Positions 1,067 through 14,463 of a DNA stretch of 64,000 bases are shown piece after piece. The translations under genes were made by a program, and so were the position numbers. Position 1 is the stretch's first letter. The number at the start of each line of letters is the position of its first letter. Origin of the DNA: Owenia fusiformis (lineage: Eukaryota; Annelida; Polychaeta; Sabellida; Oweniidae); the NCBI GenBank assembly GCA_903813345.2, contig CAIIXF020000009.1, positions 3,348,001 through 3,412,000 of the forward strand, in the 5' to 3' direction. A model generated the notes under the pieces. It worked only from the letters and a program-made list of their open reading frames with translations, did no database searches and was not told the origin of the DNA.

Positions 1067-1074
1067 ATGTATGA

Positions 1075-1172
1075 CAAGGAGGATTGGCTCCCAGAGTGCA
1101 CCACCGATATTCTGTCCCATATATGGTAGCGTGACCTTTGACCTTGTTGACACGTGACAGGTTTCAAAATGG
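1075..1172 (+). repeat. Left terminal inverted repeat of the 13.27-kb transposon
   Basis: It matches the reverse complement of 14253-14341 from CAAGGAGGATTGGCTCCC through TTTCAAAATGGC. The differences are one substitution (GTGC against ATGC), one 1-base gap and one insertion of about 11 bases in the left copy that contains an E-box, CACGTG. It contains TGACCTTTGACCT (1132-1144), which is a perfect DR1 nuclear-receptor half-site pair on the other strand. It ends with an ATG (1169-1171) that opens a 15-codon frame, possibly a short first exon of the transposase gene (GTAAAC donor-like site after TTTTCA). Confidence 0.9.
1132..1144 (-). promoter_or_regulatory. DR1-type nuclear receptor site in left TIR
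   Basis: On - it reads AGGTCAAAGGTCA, two AGGTCA half-sites one base apart, the DR1 consensus bound by RXR/HNF4/COUP-TF-type receptors. The same 13 bases occur in the right TIR at 14271-14283. A role in transcription of the two terminal genes is inference from its position 25-30 bp before the ATG at each end. Confidence 0.5.
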
Positions 1173-1940
1173 CGGATTTCACGAAAGTTAAATTTTTAGA
1201 ATTTTCAGTAAACTAGCAATTCATTGTCAATTGAAGAGTCTTTGGTATGTATTTTGTATTGCCTTACATTCCAACAACAGTATTTTACTTTTTGAATAGC
1301 TTCTAAGTTCTATATAATATCACATTCTATGTTTAGTACAAACAAATAAAAATCTAGAATATTTGGCATTTGCATTTTCTCCTTGTCAAAATCTGTACAA
1401 TGTATAGTTTATTCTAGGCCCACAGAGGCATGTAGCAATATATATATATGTATATATATGATTGTCAGAGTCTCTATACTGTATACTATAGTTATTTCTA
1501 CTAACTGTTTTTTTACTCAAACCAGATCCATATCCCCTAAAATTTGTTTATTTTACATTTTGTTTACTCTCAGCCACTGATACCATGTTTACCTTATGAA
1601 AAGGCCTGTGAAAAAGACACAATTGTTTTATGTCCCCTATTTTCCCCTTTTAGTCAGAAGAAAAATGCTGAAGATGCCTGAGTCTTTTCTCATACAGTAC
1701 ATGTAGGGTAGTTGCTCCAAGTCTGGCTGCCACTGACTTAAACACAGAGCCCCAATGAAAAAACACCAGATGTAAGAGCTTTGTCCACTTATGTTTATAA
1801 AACCAATAAATTTGTACATCTTATAAATCCACTTCAAAATATCATTATTGAAATACAGAAAGGTGTAAATTTTAAAGAAATCAAATCATTACATGTATTT
1901 TATTAAATGTGTTATTTCTGAACATAAAACCGCATTGTAA

Positions 1941-3113
1941 ATGTATGTACATATTAAACAAATACTGGATGACCATGAGGTGGATATGCCAGAATACCTA
2001 TCTGAGGAAAAAAATACTAGGCGAGGCAATGTCATGTCATTTAAATCATCCTTTTCAGTTGAAAAAAGGCCACGTGTCCCAGGGGATACACCTCCCCCAA
2101 AGAGGCTAGTAATAACACCCAAGAAGTCAACAAGACCGCAAGTGGTAGTTACCCCAAGAAAGACCCCCTTAAAATTAAAGAGAGCGTTATTTTCCCCAAC
2201 AAAAGTACCTGTTCAGGTAAGGTGACTTATTTTATCCAGGCCAGAGAGTTGTGCATTAAGAGAAAAAATTGCAAGGATAATTACAATTGACCAATTTGTA
2301 AAGATAACCTTATTACAGTTGAGTTCCAATATATTTTTTACCATCTCAAATATATAGTTCACCATAGGCTCATGCATTATATATAATCTATGTTTTCATT
2401 CATTTTGATTAAATTTGAATAATTTTACTCTAGGTGATACAAAGTTCTACAAAGACTGTGCAAAAGACACCATTCTCAATTTGGCAAGAGAGGGAGACCA
2501 CTGCTCTTGTTGACTTCATAACGAGGTACACTTTGTCAGTATAATAATTCATAGAGTTGAGTCAAGAGTAATAATTTGCACATTTATTTCAAAATAGGCT
2601 GCAATTTGCATTTGTATTTACCTACAGTACATGTCACTCTCTGTAATCACTTCAAGCTGAAGTTTTTGAAATTTATTTTTTACATTTGTTAATTAGGATC
2701 CATAAACCAAATGAAAAACCAGGTGTTAGTCCTTGGCCGAACTACTCTAATAAAAATGCCTTCTGGGACAAAGCTGCAAGCTTTGTGTCTCTCAAGACTG
2801 GTTTGAAAAGGCGAACAGGTAACATGATCATTTTTATTTTACATTGTTTAAATTGACTGCACACCAATGATGCCAATACCCTTCATGATACCTGGCTGGT
2901 CCAAATGAGTGCATGTTTTGCTGAATATAAACAGGCAATACTGTAAGCGTTTGGTCCAAAATAATATGACAACATCATGTCTTAGGGTTCATATCTCCAC
3001 TCTTTGTCTATATTCATATAAAGTTAATAACAAGTAATGTTACCGGGTTAAAGAACATTATGTAAGTAAAACTATTTTGAGAAAAGCTACTTGCTTGTCT
3101 ACTTGCCTGCCAA

Positions 3114-3197
<84 letters not shown>

Positions 3198-3485
3198 CCA
3201 GACCATTTAACCATGCAAACAAAACATCATATATTTTCAGGAGTTAGTGTATGCTCTAAAGTACACAGGGATATTAAATTTAAATTCTTAACGTTCCAAG
3301 AGGCTAAGGAGAGGCATGGACTGTCGGATGACATTCAACATTCTGTTGACATTGACAATCTTAATTCAAAGGAAAAGATTGAACTTTCAAGGAAGTTAAT
3401 CAATTCAATGCCAGCTGGTAAATTGGAAGAGGTTGAAGATTATTTAGATGAACAATTCCACAATATATCTGGGGATTTGTTCTAA
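1941..3485 (+). CDS. SANT/Myb-like DNA-binding part of the transposon's transposase gene (4 exons)
   Basis: Exons are 1941-2216, 2434-2525, 2697-2818 and 3241-3485, with consensus GT-AG borders and matching phases (0, 2, 1), giving 244 codons and a TAA at 3483. The ATG at 1941 follows an in-frame TAA; an upstream exon starting in the TIR (1169) is possible. Residues 1-92 are basic and Pro/Lys-rich (PPPKRL, VTPRKTP), typical of a nuclear tail. Residues ~105-160 read W-x-E-R-E-T-T-A-L-V-D-F-I, then FWDKAASFV, the spacing of a SANT/Myb/MADF-like trihelical DNA-binding domain. The C-terminus is a charged helix (SKEKIELSRKL to VEDYLDEQF). The next coding segment continues at once in the +1 frame. 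I therefore think this is the N-terminal part of one transposase, cut off by a one-base frameshift, and not a separate protein. Most likely role: TIR recognition. Confidence 0.7.
3105..3199 (+). repeat. (TGCC)n microsatellite next to a splice acceptor
   Basis: An almost perfect run of about 22 tetranucleotide units (CCTG/TGCC) fills the end of the third intron of the transposase gene and stops 40 bases before its acceptor (TTTTCAG at 3234-3240). Long frames read across it on - (poly AGRQ) are repeat artefacts. Confidence 0.95.
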
Positions 3486-3486
3486 T

Positions 3487-6400
3487 CCAAGAACTTTTAT
3501 ATCAACTTCATTAAAAGCAATGGAACGGCTTCAAAGAGAAGAGAGGCCCAATACTCTCCTTAAGATGGCAAACATAGTAACTAAATATAAAATAAGTTTT
3601 GAGAGAATGCCTTGGGGTCTTATACAATACCAGATAGACTTCTTCTTCTGCTCCAATATTAACCAGGTGGGGGACCAGGTTATCTTTCAATGTGCTCAAA
3701 TGTCCTTATTATCAAAATCCTCATAATATTTAGCCTAACATTCAACCAAGTCTAACCTTTTCCTTTTTATAATATTGCTTGCTGAGATAATATAGTAATA
3801 CCTCAAAATGCATCTGGGATTGGCTAGAAGTGTTTGGATAAGCAGGTATATAAATATATAAATTTAGGTATATGTCTATGGGAGATAACAAGTTTTTGAT
3901 TGGGAAATAATGTAAACATTGAGAGGTGCTCTCTTTAAAGAGGCTCCATTTCAAGAGGTGTTGCGATATATAGGTTTAACTGTAGTTTATTCATAAATAT
4001 AAAAATATATTTATTCAATGATCTAACTTTGAATTATTTATATATTCAAGCAGGTTTTTGATCAAGACATATCAAATAAGACTTATGCTGTGTTTAAATT
4101 ATATGTGCCTTACTCTAACACCTGCTAATGCACAGATTACAGTACCACCAGACTTTATGCAGTGGATTGAGACACTGGATGCAGAATATCCAACCAGACT
4201 ACTCCGCCTCATAAGGGGTCCAATGTGGAGTGGCCTGAACAACAAACAAGACGTTGGAATGCCATCAAAGGTAACATTGAATTGATTGAATCACACACTT
4301 TTAAATGCCAAGAAACTGGAAGATGAAATAACATATTATGTATATACAGGTTATACAGGTAATACTCTTACATTCCTGAGAGTTTTAGGGGACATTTAAA
4401 GGAAATATGATTTATACTTAGTCTTCTACTGCAAGTTCATTGCTCATGATGAAGTTCATGATGATCAATATAAATTGTATTTAATTTAATTCATTAGTTG
4501 TTTTTGGAAAGATGTCTGATATTTAGTATTGCCTGATAATATTACCTTTGTAGGTGTTATCCGTTTATTCATCTATCTATGACATTCCTCTACTGTTGAA
4601 ATGACAAAATGAATGTTAAGTTGGAAAGTAATGTATTATATAGATGAAAACACATAAGTTGAACCTCTCTGTATAAATCAAAATTATTCTCTCTTACCAA
4701 TAACGCCTTTTTACATATATGTAGGCAAAAGTAAATATTGCATGCCCAAGCCAACGAACCATTTGTAACAGAACAAGAGAGTCTGATTTCACCACAGATC
4801 CAGAGATACAGGTATAAACTTAACTAACAATGCACCATTATTTGTTGATATGCTTTATTCCAAAATATCATGTAAAATATACAACTCATGAACTCAACAT
4901 AACCATACAATGGTATTGACTGCCAATTTGGTTACACTTTTCAAAGCATTTAGAATGGCCATTTAGTGGGAACCCGTATCAGAGTACAGTAGAACCTGTG
5001 TAATTGGAACATTCTTGGGACCACAAAAAAGTGTTCCACTTGGGAGGTGTTCCACTTAAAGATGTTCATTCATATTGAGTAGATAGGCCATGGGACTTTA
5101 AGAACACTATTCCACTTGTGAGGTGTTCCACTTACAGAGCTGTTCCACTTAGCAGGTTCTACTGTACATCATTTGGTTACAATACTCTCAAAATGAGTTT
5201 ATATCCATGCAATAATTGAAATCATTAAGAAATGAAACATCATGAAATATCTCTTTTTATTACGGAAGGTTGAAGCCTTAACAAAGCTTAAAAAGGGCAG
5301 ATATTGGATTAAGGTGGATGGCACTGATGTCAAACCTGCCTTGCAAGAATCAGTCGCTGGAGAGTGGAATGGGGATGTGGACTTACGAGATGGGACTCTG
5401 GGAATCCTAAAACGTGAGCGAGATGAAAGGGTATGGGCAATCAACATCCTTTGCCACACCCAACATCCGGATGGTGATGTGATTCTTAGTGAGATAGTCA
5501 GATTCAGAGAAGACAGGATATTCTTGACAGAAAGTCACGCCAACTTAAGCAGATCTTATATAGCAGCTCTTGGCAAAGAGACTGCCGAGCGCAAGCTCCG
5601 GGAACTAGCATGGAGTACCGTGGAGTGCAGTCAGTTGGTAACAAGTCTGGACATGTTAGCAGCACTTCTGGAGCACTGCCTTCGCATGGTCCAGGAAAGA
5701 GATCCTAACTTTCCACCTGCATGCTTCCAACTGGAACGTCTGGAGGATGACTGGAAGTCATACATAACAAAGGTAACCAACAATCATGCTTGGCTTTCAG
5801 AAATGATTTTGTGGTGATGACATAATGTGGTGGTGACATGTTGTCAAATTTTTGTGGTTGGTGTTCGGCGGTTGCTGTTTATGGCAATCAGCGGTTAGTT
5901 ATTGGCCAAAACCCGAATGGATTAAAATGATTTATAAGTTGCACAGGCAATTTTAGCAAATTGATATATACTTTAATAAACATTTATACTGTAAATTCAT
6001 TCTAAATGCTCTCTGTATAATTGTTTGGATAGTACAAATCAGGCAGTACAAATCTAGATATTCATGCCAGTTGGTGCTATTGCCCCCCACCCTCAAACTG
6101 AGAGTAGCTCTTGTAAATTTGAAATATGCATCAATTTCTAGCTTTTCAAGAAAAAGCGTACAATGGCAGATCATGTTATGGTATTTATGGTATCTGAAGA
6201 GACAAGGCTCACTAAACCATACAGTATTCCAGTCCAATACATCCCCTACCACACCATACGGGATCAACAACTCCGATGTCTGGTCAACAAGGTGAAAGCA
6301 GCAATGATGGCTGTACAGGCAAAGCCTATAGGTACACATATTAGTGAAATGTATAAGAATGTGAAGATATCAAATATAAACTCTGCCAAACTAATAATTG

Positions 6401-9400
6401 TAGGTCGTGCAAAATTATATTTATCAAGCCCTTTGTTCCAATTTGATATTAAATGAATGCTGATATATCAATTGAAATGTTCCAAAGATACAAAAGCATG
6501 AATATGTAAATCTGATTATTTATACATTTGATATTTCAATGAGTTATATACTTGTTTATTCAATAAAAGTATAGTCTAGTAAAACTCTCCTTATTGGAAT
6601 ACCTATGGAAACAGCTAAATGTGTTCGGATTGGGAGGTGTTTACATTTTAACTTTTTTGCATTAGCAAGATTTGAAGAAATGTGAACTCATTACCCATCA
6701 AAGTTAATAGCTCAATTGACCACAAACTGTGTCATATCACTGTTCAATTGATAGATGTTCACATTTCATAGGGTAGTCAGTGTGAGAAAAAATTGGTGGA
6801 TTAAAAGATGTTCTAAATGCAGGTTTCACTGTCTTGATTATATTTTTGGCACATTTAAGGAACTGTAACAGATGGCGAGTTCCATACATTGAGGACCAAA
6901 GGGAATAAGGAAGCTCTTCACCTGTATGAACTTATTGTTCAGAGTAGAGACTTCGTAAGACACATGAAGAAGGACACTCTCCTGAACATGCTACTACCAA
7001 CAAGTAAATAATTATTAATTTAAAGGGACAACAAGGACTTTAGAGAGAATATTAGAAAATCAGGGCAACATTTGGCTTAACTTCTTCTCTTACATACATT
7101 TTTTCTTAAAATGTATGGAACTATCAGTTTCCGCCTAAAGAAGTGTAAATTCAGTTCAAAGCTTCTATAAAGGGAGTCCAAATTGAACTTTTAAGATCCA
7201 TCACGTTTTAAGAGGAATATCAACTTTGTAGATAATAAAAATATATATTAGTCTTGATAATTATCCAAACTTAAATATATTTTGATACTGGACCATGATC
7301 GTTGAATCTCTGCACATAATGTTGCACCTTTAAACACAATCATGTGTATGTTTCATTTGACATGCTATCATATGATAACATTAAATAACATACCAAAACT
7401 TTCATTATTATAGGGATTGCTGAGGGTCAATATGTAGTTAATCCTCCAACATTTGTACCAGCAGAAGTGGTCATAAGGATCCACATGAGCATCTTACAAG
7501 GAGCTCCCATTGAACAAGCTTTGGCCATGGAGAGGCAACGACAAGTTCCTGATGGTTACAACCCTTATCCATACAAAAAAAATCTAATCCCGGAGTCAAT
7601 GACTGATACTCTTAGAAGTATTGTGGCCACACTCAGATTTCGTGAGATGGTTTCAACATTCTAGCAGGAGGGGAGAGACTTTTCTTCTCATGTTTATGTT
7701 CCAGAGGTAATTATACAGCAAGAATTTGGGATTATGAACGAAAATATAAGCATAATGGGAAAAATCTTTGTATCATAAATAAGAGTTGAGGTATTTATTT
7801 GGTTTGCTCACTTTCGATAAATGATATGATTTTTGCTGATGACTTCTCCTATATCATCTGAAGTGATATTTTGAACTGTAAGACTATCACTGCACAAAAC
7901 ATTTAACACAAATCACTGGAATGGTCACAACCCATGTTTCAATAAGGATGAAATGTATATCATTAACTTAACAGGTAGATGAAATTACTGGGGACGTTTT
8001 CCACGAAAGGGGTGACCACAACCACATCCTCAAAAGGATTGCTACATCTACAAGAGAGATGAAATGCCAGCAACTTCACCCTGAGGGTTTTGATGAAGCT
8101 CTCAATGACCCTACAACAGGTAATTAGGGTTTGAACTACAGTAAGGCCTGGTTCAATGGTCATTGAAACGGCTGAGTTGATTTTTTCTCTTGGTATAAGA
8201 AAATAATATGGCAACATTGTGAAGTGTGTGTAATTCATACATATGGTATTCTCTGGTTTACTGATGTTCACTTGCTAAAAGTTTGATAGTTTCATTAAAC
8301 ATTCACAATGTACAGTTGTAGACTGCTCTCCATGGGCAACTGTAAAGATTGCTACTTATGTCAATTGTTGAACAATCATTTCAAAAATCATTTCATTTGC
8401 AACACTTGGTAAAATATTGTATGTTGTAGTCAACAGTCAATATTGTTGACTTTAATTGGAATGTTATTAAATTTATTCATTTTATTTACTTTTTGAGGTA
8501 CTGTTAAGATTTTTTTTATTTGATTGTAACTTTATAAATTGAATGAATCATCTAAACATATTTCTATGCTCTGTCAAAAGAATACTTTATGGTGATTAGC
8601 AATGTGTGAATAAAACTTCCTTTGTGTACATAGACATCATATAGCTGTAATTGGTTGATTAATTGTAAGATATGTATGTACCCTAAAGGTCTCACACATG
8701 CTGCATTGGTTGGCCTACGCAAACAATCTGTGCTAGATGCAGAGCGCCTATTGTCACACCGTATGGCAAGGTTCATGGAGGTAGATAACTTTCATCATAT
8801 ACTTGGTTTCGCTTCATTGTTCCCATTCAATACAAATATCAATAATAAGAAGGAACACTTTCATTTATCAATCATGAACCATATTGATATGTTTAATATT
8901 ATTTATTGAATATGTTGTTATGAAAAAAGTATTTCACCTATCGCATCCATTCACAAAAATTACTTTTATGTTTATTTTAGACTCTTTTTATTCTCTGAAT
9001 TATAATGTTGCATAACAAGACTGTCAATAGGCTTACAAAAAAGAGCAAAATTAATATGAAACCTTAACATACTGCACTGGCTATAATCATTGGCATAACC
9101 ATTATTACCATGGTTACCAGGCAAATCATCAGTACTTAGATGCTATAGCAACGTGGCACGAGTGCAGTGATGGGCGAGGGCTTAGCCAGTTGGAAAGGTC
9201 CAAAGGAAACTACAATATGCTTAATTATATCCTGGATGACTGGATGCCATGGCATCGGGACACATATGATTTCAGTCTAATTGACATCAACAGGTACACA
9301 CTATAAAATATACATATGACTCAGGAGTTAGCAATTCTAGTATGTTACAAATGTTATAGTCCATGCAATTAGCCAGACATTGTGGGTTCATTAAATTCCC

Positions 9401-10708
9401 CCCATTCTAGAGATTGTGATCATATGGCAGTTTTGAGGAGTTGCTCACTATAAACCCTTATCAAGACTTAAATGTTGGTCCAATATTCAAATTATACAGT
9501 GAAACCTATGTACGTGGATCTTCTTTAGTACCTATACAAAGTGTTCCACTTAAGACATGTTTCTGAGGTGCATCGAACATAAAGTCAGTTGGTCTTTTCC
9601 ACTTTACAGGTTTTACTGTAACTAAAATATTCTAATATGTAGAAAATGAACAAAAAAGGGGTGTAAAGGGGGTTTCAAATAACATATTTTTCGTTACTCT
9701 TGCTCCATGTACTGTACTACAGTATAATATTCACTTTTCTAACTTTTTGGTTAATCTCGGATACAATAAACCATAAAATTTGATTATGTATAATATCATT
9801 CTTATATATACCTCAGCACATACAACTTGAATTAAACAAGATCAATGAAAAACTATTTAATAGTGTTACATTTTTTAATCTGGTAATTGTTTTAGTATTT
9901 GATACATTTTATATTGAGGGGTTCTTTGCATTATCCAGGCGACTACTAGACGGGTCCTTCACCTTGAAGGATTTCAAGTTCCAATGGAGGAAAGTAGTGA
10001 GGTACATATGATGAAGAAACTTGGCCAGAATGTGCATTAAATAAAATTGTGATTGTGATTACATAAATTTATTTGACACTGAAAGTCACATAGAGAAGAA
10101 TCACGCCTTTCAGTGGTAACAGAACATTTACATGTAGTTATAGAATAGAAATAAATTGAAATGTAGCAATCATCTGTAAGTTACAAATACATGCACCTAT
10201 CTCTGTTTTAATAATACGTGTACATTTCATATTGTACATGCAATTATACCAATCTGCCATGTCTTAGTGTTTATAGTATTTATTCAAGTATTTTTAGACA
10301 AACACACAAAATATAAACTAAGAAATGATGATCTGTTAATAAACAAATTACATATATGCCACTTCCACTTATTAAATATGGCAACATCTGTTTAGGGAAT
10401 TTGTACGAAGAACAGATCCTGACCTTAGATTTTATTACTGGTCCAGAAATGAGCGATACAGAGAAGAGGAACCAAATTTTGACATTCCTTGTGACCAAAT
10501 TGATGAGCATCAGTACCATGAACGACACCAAGCACCCCGTCTTCATCGCCGTATTCACAATACACGTGAAGACAGATCTATAATTGCCCCAGGAAGAGCT
10601 TTCCTTCCAGTCAGAAATCAAGTTCACCTGAGACAACGACTCTATAGACCTGTGGCTGAATTGCCACCGATACCAGAGGAGTTACAGAGAGTGCTGCCTC
10701 ATCAATAG
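3487..10708 (+). CDS. Transposase-like catalytic region, P-element/THAP9-like RNase H pattern (12 exons, broken)
   Basis: Exons: 3487-3666, 4136-4270, 4725-4811, 5269-5772, 6151-6331, 6860-7003, 7414-7706, 7975-8119, 8689-8780, 9121-9293, 9939-10001, 10396-10708 (TAG). All phases join. Together with the SANT part it would give about 1,010 residues. The first exon holds MERLQREERPN and a weak GTGGGG donor. Exon 5269-5772 has WIKVDGTDVKPAL followed by WNGDVDLRDG, with a candidate first catalytic Asp at 5317. Exon 6151-6331 begins its domain with DHVMVFMV, and VTDGEF (Asp at 6871) is a candidate second Asp. Then come GDHNHILKRI and LTHAAL...AERLLSHRMARF. This order (D-x-x, VFMV, TDG, HxLK, late helix) parallels P-element/THAP9 transposases; the assignment is inference, and hAT-like folds are the alternative. 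Lesion: in-frame TAG at 7662-7664, after which the frame stays open to the donor. A poly(A) signal AATAAA lies at 10927. Confidence 0.7.
4985..5166. mobile_element. Small MITE with ends TACAGTAGAACCTG / CAGGTTCTACTGTA
   Basis: Imperfect 14-bp terminal inverted repeats enclose about 180 bp with internal direct copies of GTTCCACTTG. It lies in an intron of the transposase gene. Related copies with the same end pattern and the same GTTCCACTT core are at 9495-9620 and, more diverged, at about 6576-6833. TA is the likely target (Tc1/mariner type). Confidence 0.7.
6576..6833. mobile_element. Diverged MITE of the CAGTAGAACC family
   Basis: Ends CTAGTAAAACTCTCC and GCAGGTTTCACTGT are degenerate inverted repeats. 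The interior has GGATTGGGAGGTGTTTACA and related words shared with the copy at 4985-5166. It lies in the transposase gene intron between 6331 and 6860. Confidence 0.45.
9495..9620. mobile_element. Short MITE of the CAGTAGAACC family
   Basis: Starts TACAGTGAAACCT and ends AGGTTTTACTGTA, with internal GTGTTCCACTTAAG as in the copy at 4985. It lies in a transposase-gene intron and is about 126 bp long. Confidence 0.65.
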
Positions 10709-11621
10709 TGCAAAAGTCCATTTAAAGATTCAGTGTCTCTTAGGTTTCTCAGTGATACCCCGTTATAACATAGGTTATTGCAAAGAATTTCTGCATTTTA
10801 ACTTGGACAGATTTTCTAAATCTTGACATACACAAGGTAAAAGCAAGGGATAGTATGGGTTTTCTCTATGGTTGAAATAAGAGTGTGATCATTTTTCTTC
10901 CAGAAAATCAGAAGCAGATAGATTAAAATAAAGAACAATAATACATTTAACATGGTTAAAAATTGCATATGAAGTCAACATGATTGAAATGGTTTATTGC
11001 TCTTGCAAGATGACAAGAGACCAATTCAATAATTATCATTATACTGTACTTACTTTTTATCAGGATTATGAATGGATCTATAAGATATACATGTCTTCAA
11101 GGTCAGATAATAGTCATAAACTAAGATAAATGTATCTGAAATTGTTTGAAATAACCTTTGTGGGGTTTGGAAAATATTTGAGTTTGTGATAGATTGTTTT
11201 AAACAGATAACAAACTCTATGCTGTACTTTTGTTAAAGGCAGAATCAGATATGTACTATAGATGCTGAAAAAATTGCAAGTTACATGGTATGATTGATCT
11301 ACCAATCCATTCCCTATGATCTCAAAAACAATATTCCCCAAGATATCTGTGATATGTTATGAATTGGTGAAATTATAAGTACTATTCTCACAAATAAAAA
11401 TGGTTACCATAATTATTGAAAAAGAATGCATTATTGTTGAAACACTTGAATCAGTTTATTGAAATAAAGTATGCACTCTGGGGATTTCAGGAAAATACAC
11501 ATGACAAGGAATGACATGACCTAAAAACATTTGAAAAGGAAACACTTTTTGTTAAACTTGCTTGCTAGATCTGATTCTCCCTTTAACAGAAGTGATACCA
11601 AATATGTTTTATTGTAATTGT
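10709..11621. other. Convergent intergenic spacer inside the large transposon
   Basis: Lies between the 3' ends of the transposase-like gene (+) and the HIRAN-like gene (-). I see a poly(A) signal AATAAA for the + gene at 10927-10932, and for the - gene AATAAA read on - at 11608-11613, 9 bases past its stop. No further gene is apparent. Confidence 0.6.
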
Positions 11622-14257
11622 TTAAATTTTGTCGTTGTACTTATAATCTTTTGATTGTTTTTCCCACTTTCCATTTTTGACAATAGTTATTTTTGCCCTC
11701 AGGTTGTACGAAGAATGTTTAGGAGCATATTGTCTGAAAATACTTGTTAAAGAGACCGATATAATTTTGTTCCCACGGAGGGCTTTGGTAACTCTGGGAA
11801 TATCACATCCAGGAATGTAGCCCAGCCTATAATTGTCATTAGCATTATGCAAAACAACCAAAGCATTCCTATCGATCATGTTTGTATCCTCACTTTTAAG
11901 TTTCAATGGATATGGCTTACTAGGATCTGATTGTGAATTTTTTTCAGCCCTGCAATGTTTGATTGAGTTCTGGTATTCCTCTTGCCATGTTGAGCCAGCA
12001 ACTGTTACTTCTATGGCACTGGGTTCATCATCATCTTCATCTTCCAATCTGTCACGCTCTTCAGTTTGATCTGTACTTTGAGTAATCTTCTCATGTGGAA
12101 TTAAGGGAGGGGATGGGCTCTTACATGAACAATTGCAATGTGCCGCAGCTGCAGAATCCACTTCCGGAAAGCCAGTGTCTGGACGTTGCTTTCCACTTGC
12201 ATTGGCAACTAATCCTCCAGCTCCTAAGAATAAGAAATGGAAATTGAACATCAATAGTCTTTCTATTTTTAAACATGTCGAATGAAACTGGGCACTATAT
12301 TATGTTGGTTTAACATCAATATTTTGAATAGCATGAAGCCATGATCATTTGTACATGTTTTGGCTAGCATTAAGCTCCATAGGCTTATGTAAAGTACCAG
12401 ATTTAAATTAGTTAATTATTACTATTGAGTTTTGGGTGACCATACCCCCAATTTTTTATGTTATAGTAGAAAACAAATGTTTATTGAAAGATGAGATGAA
12501 AGATGAAAGCCATGAACCTGATGAAACATTTTGCTGTATTTTTTTTAAGTAATCCAGATGCATGTTATATATGCAAGTATAACAAAATGTGTTCCGTTAA
12601 TATTTGACAGTAGTAATATTAGAATGTGCATGTATAGCTACAGGATGCAGCAACAAGTTGCCTTCATTGTAAAGAAACAATATAAGACGTTAAGAATGTG
12701 TTCAAGAGATTAAGATTACAGCAATGAATTTTAACATGATACAATGCTTGTATGCTCAAACTCTCATAAAATTGCTGACATATCCTGGGCTAAATAATGT
12801 AAAAATACATGTATTTTACATGAAAAGTTCCATAGTACAGATTATACTATTATTGATAGCTGATAATAAATGACATCATTTTCATACCAAGAATCATTTT
12901 AGTTATGTTTAACTTTACCAAAATATATCCAGTTTAAGTTATAACCACTTGCCTGGAAGTAGTTTTAAATTAGTGATCAGCTCTACCTCCACCGTCTCTT
13001 CATTTTCTTTGTCATAGAGCTGCAATCCAAAAGAAAAGTACAAGTTCTACACATTTTTAGTGTCATGTTGAACATTATCCAGATAATACCTCTCCTATAC
13101 ATGGAAACACTATTTCATGCAACAATCATCATTGGCCCTGGTGTTCCTGCACTGTAAAAGGAACATTTACCAAAATGAGTCTTTTGGTCTGGAACTTACC
13201 ACCACACAAGTATTTTCCAAGTATTACCCTGGAGTCATCTCAGTCAGCAATTATAATATGCACGTATAAGTTGAGAATGTGTTCGAGAGATTAAGATTAC
13301 AGCACTGAATTTTTAAGTGACACAATGCTTGTATGCTCAAACTCTCATAAAATCGCTGACATATCCTCTGTTCTCCCAGCCCTCCAGGTACTGTATGACC
13401 AATTATACCAGTCTCGTAGGATCAAATCTTCCTTACACCTTACATTAAAATGGGGAGGCAGTCTTCCCTGTTATAATTTCTAGCATACATATTAGAAGTA
13501 CATGAACCCCCATAAATGCTTTTTCAAATCAACCCCACACCTTTTATACGTTCTTGTATATTCATACAGTAGGTGTGGGGTTGATTTGAAAAATTAGCCC
13601 ACATGTATGATTGCATGGGTTTCATTAGGCTTGGGTAACCAAACCAGTCTGGCCCAGTTATCTACTCCTGATTCTGAAATATCGTCAGGAGTTGATAACT
13701 GGGTCAGACGGGTTTGGCTATAGGCTTGGGTAGATTGAGACTTATAGGTAGAAGCCTCTAATGCGTTAGATTATTGTAGTGATTTACCAATCCTCAGAGA
13801 CCAAGAGGGTGCATGAATGCATTGAGACTCTAGGCTCAAGAATTTCAAAGGAGGGGGGGTACATGTAGTATGTTTCCAACAGACCTAATATAATATTCAG
13901 ACGAAAAGGATACAGTCTAGGGGGATTTACTACCCATGGATTCATAATGAATGCAAATATTGGTGCAAAGAATAGTCATAAGCTTACCTTTACTGACGAA
14001 GATCCTTCTACAAGTACATAAACAGGAGCAACAAATGTCTCTAGAGAAGTCAAATTGTTAAAAGAATCGAGAATAGTAGCATATCTGCGATCAGAGAGGT
14101 TAGAGAGAAAGGAGACGTGACAAATCCTAATATCTAACACGATAAAGTTACAAGATTGAAGTTGGTACGTTTTTGTAGTATTTTCCAGGCAAGAAATATA
14201 CAAAATCTCTCCTTTTTTGATAAAATTTCCGCTTGTTTTCTTTAGCACGGAAGCCAT
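11622..14257 (-). CDS. HIRAN-like domain protein carried by the large transposon (3 exons)
   Basis: On -: exon 1 14257-13988, exon 2 13019-12953, exon 3 12223-11622, giving 312 residues ending TAA. Phases 0 and 1 join exactly. Exon 1/2 uses GTAAGC. Exon 2 ends in a GC donor with the classic AG|GCAAGT context. The start ATG lies in the TIR and is 14 bp from the DR1 site. Residues 1-90 begin MASVLKKTSG and are not recognised. Residues ~140-150 hold an HCNCSC cluster, then an acidic stretch EDEDDDE. Residues ~215-290 read KSEDTNMIDRNALVV, LGYIPGCDIPRV, ISVSLTSIFR. This is the pattern of a HIRAN domain (Asp-Asn-Ala-(V)-V, then GYIP, then a second strand), known in HLTF/Rad5 to bind 3' DNA ends. 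It is intact while the transposase is broken. An accessory role in transposition, such as end binding, is inference; the domain call is by eye. Confidence 0.75.
12688..12790. repeat. Direct repeat copy A in HIRAN-gene intron
   Basis: About 100 bp starting AAGAATGTGTTC and ending CTGACATATCCT recurs at about 13268-13372 with roughly ten substitutions and small gaps (shared blocks AGAGATTAAGATTACAGCA and CTTGTATGCTCAAACTCTCA). A local duplication inside the transposon. Confidence 0.8.
13268..13372. repeat. Direct repeat copy B in HIRAN-gene intron
   Basis: Partner of 12688-12790, same orientation, lying about 580 bp away in the first intron of the HIRAN-like gene. Confidence 0.8.
13516..13600. 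repeat. Stem-loop 1 in transposon intron
   Basis: Arms TTTTCAAATCAACCCCACACC and its near-perfect complement GGTGTGGGGTTGATTTGAAAAA are separated by about 35 bases, giving a stem of more than 20 bp. Confidence 0.8.
13638..13723. repeat. Stem-loop 2 in transposon intron
   Basis: Left arm CCAAACCAGTCTGGCCCAGT continuing TATCTACTCCTGA, right arm TCAGGAGTTGATAACTGGG continuing TCAGACGGGTTTGG: about 32 paired bases with few mismatches and a ~16-base loop. It follows stem-loop 1 directly. Confidence 0.8.
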
Positions 14258-14341
14258 TTTGAAACCTGTGAGGTCAAAGGTCACCGCTACCATATATGGG
14301 ACAGAATATCGGTGGTGCATTCTGGGAGCCAATCCTCCTTG
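14253..14341 (-). repeat. Right terminal inverted repeat of the 13.27-kb transposon
   Basis: Inverted copy of 1075-1172. It holds AGGTCAAAGGTCA (14271-14283), a perfect DR1 motif, and contributes the ATG (14257-14255 on -) that starts the HIRAN-like gene. The outer end CCAATCCTCCTTG abuts the target duplication ATGTATGA at 14342-14349. Confidence 0.9.
14271..14283 (+). promoter_or_regulatory. DR1-type nuclear receptor site in right TIR
   Basis: Reads AGGTCAAAGGTCA, identical to the left-TIR copy in inverted position. It lies 14 bp upstream of the ATG of the HIRAN-like gene on -. Confidence 0.5.
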
Positions 14342-14463
14342 ATGTATGAGCTCCTCAGCATTGTTTTATCATGACGTCATATAACCCTCTTGTTAACAAA
14401 TTCTCGGAATATGGTACCATTATCTGTGACGTCAGTGACACATTGCCCCATTAACAATAGACT

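Follow-up and report, generated by a model that had tools for sequence, protein, structure and literature searches.

Described Systems Close to the Element

The element reported here, a ~13.3-kb DNA transposon at positions 1075-14341 of a 64,000-nucleotide stretch from the annelid Owenia fusiformis, bears a weak likeness to the P superfamily (P element, THAP9, Galileo). The whole stretch, called the window hereafter, is C9:3348001-3412000 (contig CAIIXF020000009.1 of assembly GCA_903813345.2). The likeness consists of a weak match to PF21787 (TNP-like RNase H), the order D...D...D(2)H...E, a short target-site duplication and inverted ends; P element ends start with CA, and the same is true of the inverted ends of the window element. 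The window element differs in that no THAP domain was found, in its 8-9-bp duplication, in a long segment between the first and second catalytic aspartates (Asp; D1 and D2) and in a second gene. The [C/D](2)H motif is not exclusive to P, being common to hAT and Mutator as well. In the P signature string given in the consulted part of PMC8230255, this motif follows the second Asp; among the insertions of P, Hermes, RAG1 and THAP9, that of P and THAP9 is described there between beta5 and alpha4. For the P superfamily, the consulted part of PMC4168063 gives target-site duplications of 7-8 bp for Galileo and, for P, within 7-8 bp.

ISL2EU and PIF-Harbinger (PHIS) are two-gene elements like the window element, and KolobokP resembles its lineage in the presence of a second nuclease but differs in its TTAA duplication and in another accessory enzyme. 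PIF-Harbinger and ISL2EU make duplications of 2-3 bp, and Kolobok duplicates TTAA. In Ping/mPing, whose transposase is unrelated, one large element is accompanied by many tiny derivatives of its ends, and the family in the window has the same composition. According to the consulted part of PMC4482050, ISL2EU carries a YqaJ nuclease as an additional open reading frame (ORF), and PIF/Harbinger and others carry an ORF for a Myb/SANT protein; in the lineage described below, by difference, YqaJ lies within the transposase frame. KolobokP elements are presented in the consulted part of PMC9587614 as animal DNA transposons with a second nuclease.

The Transposon and Its Miniature Derivatives

The window element was confirmed to be real: a large DNA transposon with two genes, accompanied by miniature inverted-repeat transposable elements (MITEs) derived from it. 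The terminal inverted repeats (TIRs) of ~90 bp proposed in the initial annotation were recovered as a left arm at 1075-1173 (+) and a right arm at 14253-14341 (-). Complementarity was 98% across 57 nt (1075-1131 with 14285-14341), and an inner block (1152-1173 with 14253-14274) matched at 91%; the two arms diverge past position 57 and can thus be told apart. A perfect 8-bp duplication, ATGTATGA, flanks the element exactly at 1067-1074 and at 14342-14349. Inside it lie two spliced genes on opposite strands, oriented inward. Only two stop-to-stop frames of at least 150 amino acids (aa) occur in the element, and since these are one exon of each gene, the gene exons stand above chance. The inward two-gene layout of the initial annotation was thus retained, but the frame of its transposase proved to be broken.

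In order to find further copies, the assembly (498 Mb, with contigs C1-C12 of 32-62 Mb each) was searched with the left TIR. With 40 of the 1323 first-look candidates scored, the search gave at least 74 matches, counted as arms and not as copies, and sets a minimum for the copy number. Of 38 TIR places retrieved, the 26 near-identical pairs alone entered the duplication count. These pairs represent at least 26 near-identical MITEs of 182, 191-193 or 201-203 bp, in each of which the left arm of the window element is joined to the right one, both arms being identical to those of the window in 16 of the 26 (aligned 85-99 bases). The duplication was 9 bp in 18 MITEs, 8 bp in seven and absent in one; in a control of 650 mismatched left and right flank pairs the longest shared stretch did not exceed 5 bp. 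One MITE (L022) sits in the TIR of another copy and duplicates GGCTCCCAG of that sequence; because its target sequence is known, the ends of the MITE and the size of 9 bp are fixed. Among the other 12 places, the duplication was 9 bp at L035 and L036 and 8 bp with one mismatch at L037, and none was seen at L039, L040, L042 and L044 at the boundaries used; L033, L034, L038, L041 and L043 were left out of the scoring.

The duplication of the family is therefore 8-9 bp and mostly 9 bp: 25 of the 26 MITEs have 8 or 9 bp and the window copy has 8 bp, and the staggered insertions of the family are thus of 8 or 9 bp. The initial annotation had the correct size for the window copy, but what it derived from a fixed 8-bp duplication does not hold for the family. 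The MITEs appear to have been mobile recently enough to remain near-identical.

The TIR search proposed in the initial annotation gave further copies in the form of MITEs, but no second autonomous copy was recovered, the genome searches with the main transposase exon and the second-gene exon matching the window only. The N-terminal exons returned the three window exons and, on C3, two partial remnants of one exon (2697-2818). Searches with internal DNA revealed one extra left end, on C12 (761 aligned bases, 97%), with no right end within the 20 kb examined, and also returned unrelated nested repeats. The coding part of the window element was thus seen in one copy only, which is probably broken. 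As to the initial concern that the TIRs might not travel with these genes, the comparison is one-sided: the MITEs carry both distinct arms, and a second autonomous copy was not found. L033 (9901-9142) is a 97% left end of the window element for which no right end was found; immediately outside it, the same TIR recurs as another fragment.

The Transposase Gene

On the + strand, ten exons between 3448 and 9293 form a single frame across nine GT-AG introns, interrupted by one TAG at 7662-7664. The continuous chain starts with the exon 3448-3666 and continues through 4136-4270, which aligns with relatives from the same genome, and 4725-4811, whose AKVNIACPS was aligned to INFAVPS of the relatives. 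The probable first catalytic Asp (codon 5317-5319) and a helical insert are encoded by 5269-5772, predicted RNase H strands and the PF21787 region by 6142-6331, and the probable second catalytic Asp (TDGEF, codon 6871-6873) by 6860-7003. The in-frame TAG lies in the exon 7414-7706; it is followed by 7975-8119 with the D(2)H motif (DHNH, from 8014), by 8689-8780 and by 9121-9293, which holds the WHECSDGRGLSQLER block common to the relatives. Further downstream, an open stretch at 9895-10001 (end set by eye) contains the probable catalytic glutamate (Glu; IEGFFAL, 9913-9933) and an RRLLDG exon, and the last exon, with the stop, is placed at 10396-10708 (start by eye). About 50 residues that precede the Glu block in the relatives were not found between 9293 and 9896.

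Upstream of the chain, a tentative first exon with a basic N-terminus was placed at 2034-2216 (start set by eye, start codon tentative), followed by exons of the so-called SANT region at 2434-2525, which had no Pfam match, and 2697-2818. The next exon (3241-3485) terminates at a stop codon, and its frame differs from that of the first exon of the chain, with which it overlaps. The SANT label of the initial annotation could not be upheld, as the N-terminus, whether joined or trimmed, matched no SANT/Myb Pfam family at E<=10. No THAP was found at E<=10 in the joined or trimmed N-terminal exons either, where the frame is broken and an exon could be missed. Because of the TAG, the upstream frame break and the stretch missing before the Glu, the transposase is probably dead, although the window copy looks structurally whole. 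Directly 5' of the tentative first exon, 1951-2027 is common to an unrelated dispersed, often palindromic repeat, and a CCTG microsatellite at 3110-3199 is intronic, slightly 5' of the exon 3241-3485.

Relatives in the Same Genome

A genome search with PF21787 gave 27 matches at E<=1, including the window (19.5 bits) and a place on C7 (19.7 bits). With the C-terminal region of the C7 protein as the query, relatives were obtained on C3, C11, C5, C1 and C6, among them long open frames with lengths of 1221, 1438 and 1467 aa. A profile built from five relatives matched the window chain with 27.4 bits (E 6.9e-7, Z=20000), the best of 200 shuffles reaching 0.8 bits. The match was made of three collinear blocks, namely the first Asp, the second Asp and the WHECSDGRGLSQLER WHE/ERSK block, with none in the nuclease stretch. 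The exon 9121-9293 alone also matched the C7 relative (E 1e-5 in a 27-kb search, 33% across 36 aa), and the comparison of window and relatives by hhalign gave E 5.2e-4. Judged from these sequence comparisons, the predicted transposase chain of the window and a lineage of relatives in this genome are homologous.

Two members of this lineage contain a nuclease. PF09588 (YqaJ) scored 38.1 bits in L067 and 30.8 bits in L066, above the cut-off of 22; L069 was left out of these scans. The order of motifs in L067 is first Asp at 403, the YqaJ E-x-K at 725 and second Asp at 956, and L065 has the same order (65, 383 and 617); in L066 the first-Asp pattern deviates. In L067 the predicted YqaJ domain thus clearly sits between the first two putative catalytic Asp, and in the window protein the helical part of the insert is present and the nuclease is not. 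The D(2)H motif takes the forms DPHH, DFHH, DFSH and DGDH in the relatives.

The C7 relative is bounded by a 76-bp inverted repeat (94.7%) and a 9-bp duplication, TGATTAACA (by eye), with two unmatched bases separating repeat and duplication at each end. It has the same inward two-gene layout, with a C2H2 zinc-finger frame as the gene on the opposite strand. A similar zinc-finger frame faces inward in the C5 relative, inside the surrounding inverted repeat, and one that looks like C2H2 by eye faces outward in the C11 relative. Different families thus seem to have different accessory genes.

Two side observations concern other sequences of the genome. L068 (4839-8221) and L074 (1164-4709) are a dispersed multi-copy sequence, 97-99% identical between loci, which shares one short W(Y)xAxD-like block with the lineage and matches the C7 C-terminal query weakly. 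In L056 (1579-8712, - strand; C3:16786001-16796000), a single frame of 2378 aa joins a P-type transposase and a YqaJ-like stretch at ~1720-1906; zinc-knuckle-like motifs were seen in it by eye, its YqaJ part is backed by the profile of the relatives, and frames of 2362 aa on C331 and C486 match the same family.

The Second Gene

The gene on the - strand has three exons at 13988-14257, 12953-13019 and 11622-12223 and an open frame of 312 aa; two exon boundaries were shifted by one base by eye, and the frame is that of the ORF of exon 3. The end of exon 2 and the start of exon 3 were set by eye, and the second intron would then have a GC donor. Its ATG lies within the inner edge of the right TIR, and for this reason the gene is part of the element, as the initial annotation had held. 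The left arm also carries AAAATGG close to its inner edge, and in the C7 relative AAAATGG occurs at both ends, the frame at the right end, MATQWKVERA, continuing into GTAAGT (by eye). From this we infer that both genes of such elements may start at the TIR edges.

The initial annotation had named this gene a HIRAN gene, which is too firm. PF08797 (HIRAN) matched a trimmed 92-aa piece, with the core DTNMIDRNALVV...RLGYIP in exon 3, at 12.0 bits (E 0.2), below the cut-off of 24.7; RCC1 matched the same piece at the same E of 0.2, and longer pieces of the second gene gave no PF08797 match. In the genome, PF08797 had four matches at E<=1, and the second gene was not among them. Comparison by hhalign with three genomic HIRAN frames gave E 0.032 and a probability of 1.6%, and the predicted fold of the main exon was unusable (mean predicted local distance difference test, pLDDT, 35.1). 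A HIRAN-like second gene is thus a lead only. HIRAN binds the 3' ends of single strands; one may speculate that such binding would fit an excision product.

Several features in and around these sequences were recorded separately. Near-identical HIRAN-domain frames (by eye) are present at L059 (4308-5057, -) and L061 (3432-3794, +), on C134 and C6, and HIRAN genes are therefore repeated in the genome; a third HIRAN frame, in L060, lies next to frames resembling a pogo/Tigger transposase (by eye). Within the first intron of the second gene there is an unrelated dispersed palindromic repeat (13636-13720), and a direct repeat of 98 nt (92%) has one unit in the second intron (12689-12786) and the other in the first (13270-13367).

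Relation to the P Superfamily and Alternative Explanations

TNP-like RNase H was the only transposase family that matched the window exons (joined exons, 20.6 bits, E 5.7e-4). PF21787 also matched the relative L057 (E 0.0022) and two of the six members of an alignment, A1 (best 5.6e-5). Against a P profile, E was 0.0013 for the second-Asp region of the window, 0.0012 for the Glu region of the relatives and 0.0073 for relatives and window together; the HH-suite probabilities of these profile comparisons, that of the window with the relatives included, were all low (0.2-31%). By eye, IEGFFAL of the window resembles VENYFSL of a P-type protein in the same genome. These data weakly suggest that the window transposase is P-like, with a catalytic region that would resemble the RNase H of P/THAP9. 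It was not filed as P because no THAP was found, because the duplications of the family (mostly 9 bp) are too long, lying outside the 7-8 bp of the P superfamily, and because the canonical P proteins of the genome lack a profile match outside a YqaJ stretch. Among the papers listed, compared by titles and the starts of abstracts and with Repbase and Dfam outside the comparison, we found no account of the lineage, of a HIRAN-bearing transposon or of YqaJ inside a transposase. The lineage is apparently undescribed, as the initial annotation had proposed, but given the weak P/THAP9 resemblance it is not wholly unplaced. Similar unnamed proteins are presumably present in cnidarian and molluscan protein sets, and sequences of the lineage may well be in databases already without a description.

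We consider it probable that the element is a cut-and-paste transposon of a divergent lineage distantly related to P/THAP9, whose MITEs arose by internal deletion and moved in trans. The + strand gene would have encoded a DDE/RNase H transposase that bound the ~90-bp inverted ends, excised the element and joined it to target DNA cut with a stagger of 8-9 bp. The first two catalytic Asp of this enzyme are predicted to be separated by a long helical segment, at the place where at least L067 among the relatives appears to house a YqaJ-type nuclease. The - strand gene, starting at the right end, would encode an accessory protein, weakly HIRAN-like here and represented in relatives by a C2H2 frame in or near the element, which may aid the recognition or the protection of the ends. 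The MITEs would have been moved by an intact copy that was lost from the assembly or missed by the searches.

A number of observations weigh against this interpretation. The PF21787 score of the window is below the cut-off of 24.6, the relatives alone gave E 0.37 against P (hhalign), and the canonical P proteins of the genome did not match the profile of the relatives in the catalytic part (L052, -2.4 bits); L056 matched it in the YqaJ stretch only, and L050 and L055 were not among the matches listed. The window was absent from the 20 genome matches of the C7 C-terminal query at E<=1, none of the three collinear blocks was significant singly (best domain i-E 0.15), and the first-Asp pattern as such was present in only two of five relatives (L065 and L067). 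Neither the L057 frame nor the long frame of L065 gave a YqaJ call at E<=1. In L067, transposase and zinc-finger frame point outward, and no 8-9-bp duplication was found at the inverted repeats of the C5 and C11 relatives. In the window itself the frame is broken (stop and break near 3485, TAG at 7662, stretch missing after 9293), and sequence and profile searches of the PDB returned no transposase and nothing relevant. The best matches in one of the PDB profile searches were designed repeat proteins matched repeatedly, which were taken as artefacts. In further searches, the NCBIfam scan gave nothing useful, and scans of viral contigs revealed no relatives.

How far the lineage stands from P allows two readings, which we regard as about equally possible, each being less likely than not. 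In the first, it would be a separate superfamily sister to P, characterized by 8-9-bp duplications, two inward genes starting at the inner edges of the TIRs and an RNase H split between D1 and D2 by a helical module, in some members with a full YqaJ. In the second, which we regard as possible to a similar degree, it would be an ordinary P-superfamily member, although a very divergent one, that has lost THAP, with 9-bp duplications as normal slack. The weak PF21787 matches of the window, L057 and A1 are consistent with membership, and so is DHNH after the second Asp when compared with the P signature string in the consulted part of PMC8230255. Galileo duplications likewise vary between 7 and 8 bp in the consulted part of PMC4168063, but 18 of the 26 MITEs have 9 bp. 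According to that part of PMC8230255, P/THAP9 have their insertion between beta5 and alpha4, while the extra segment here is found between D1 and D2. No THAP match was obtained, and the genome's canonical P proteins lack a match to the lineage profile in their catalytic part.

A place in Mutator, hAT or Merlin, superfamilies that combine long inverted ends with duplications of 8-10 bp, is improbable. Duplications of 8-9 bp and ends of ~90 bp would fit a Mutator-like element, and the [C/D](2)H motif is shared by hAT and Mutator, but no Pfam family of these three matched the window exons or the A1 members (E<=10) or the relatives scanned (E<=1). Elements of hAT have duplications of 8 bp, and those of the window family are mostly 9 bp. 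No DDE family of the PIF-Harbinger type matched the window exons at E<=10, and the 8-9-bp duplication of the window family stands beside the 2-3 bp of that group. Capture of two unrelated host genes by an older MITE-type element would accord with the single coding copy and the nested unrelated repeats inside the element, but is very improbable, given a second gene whose ATG lies in the right TIR, a protein homologous to a transposase lineage, and one element of that lineage with the same layout and comparable ends.

Implications

If the divergent lineage distantly related to P/THAP9 holds, a DDE transposase would tolerate an entire domain of the exonuclease type inserted after its first and ahead of its second catalytic residue. 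Such an insertion site between D1 and D2 would differ from the one described for P, Hermes and RAG1 in the consulted part of PMC8230255, and would raise the question of whether the nuclease processes excision gaps. The MITEs would be tractable substrates, since many of them are near-identical to the ends of the element and their target sites are readable.

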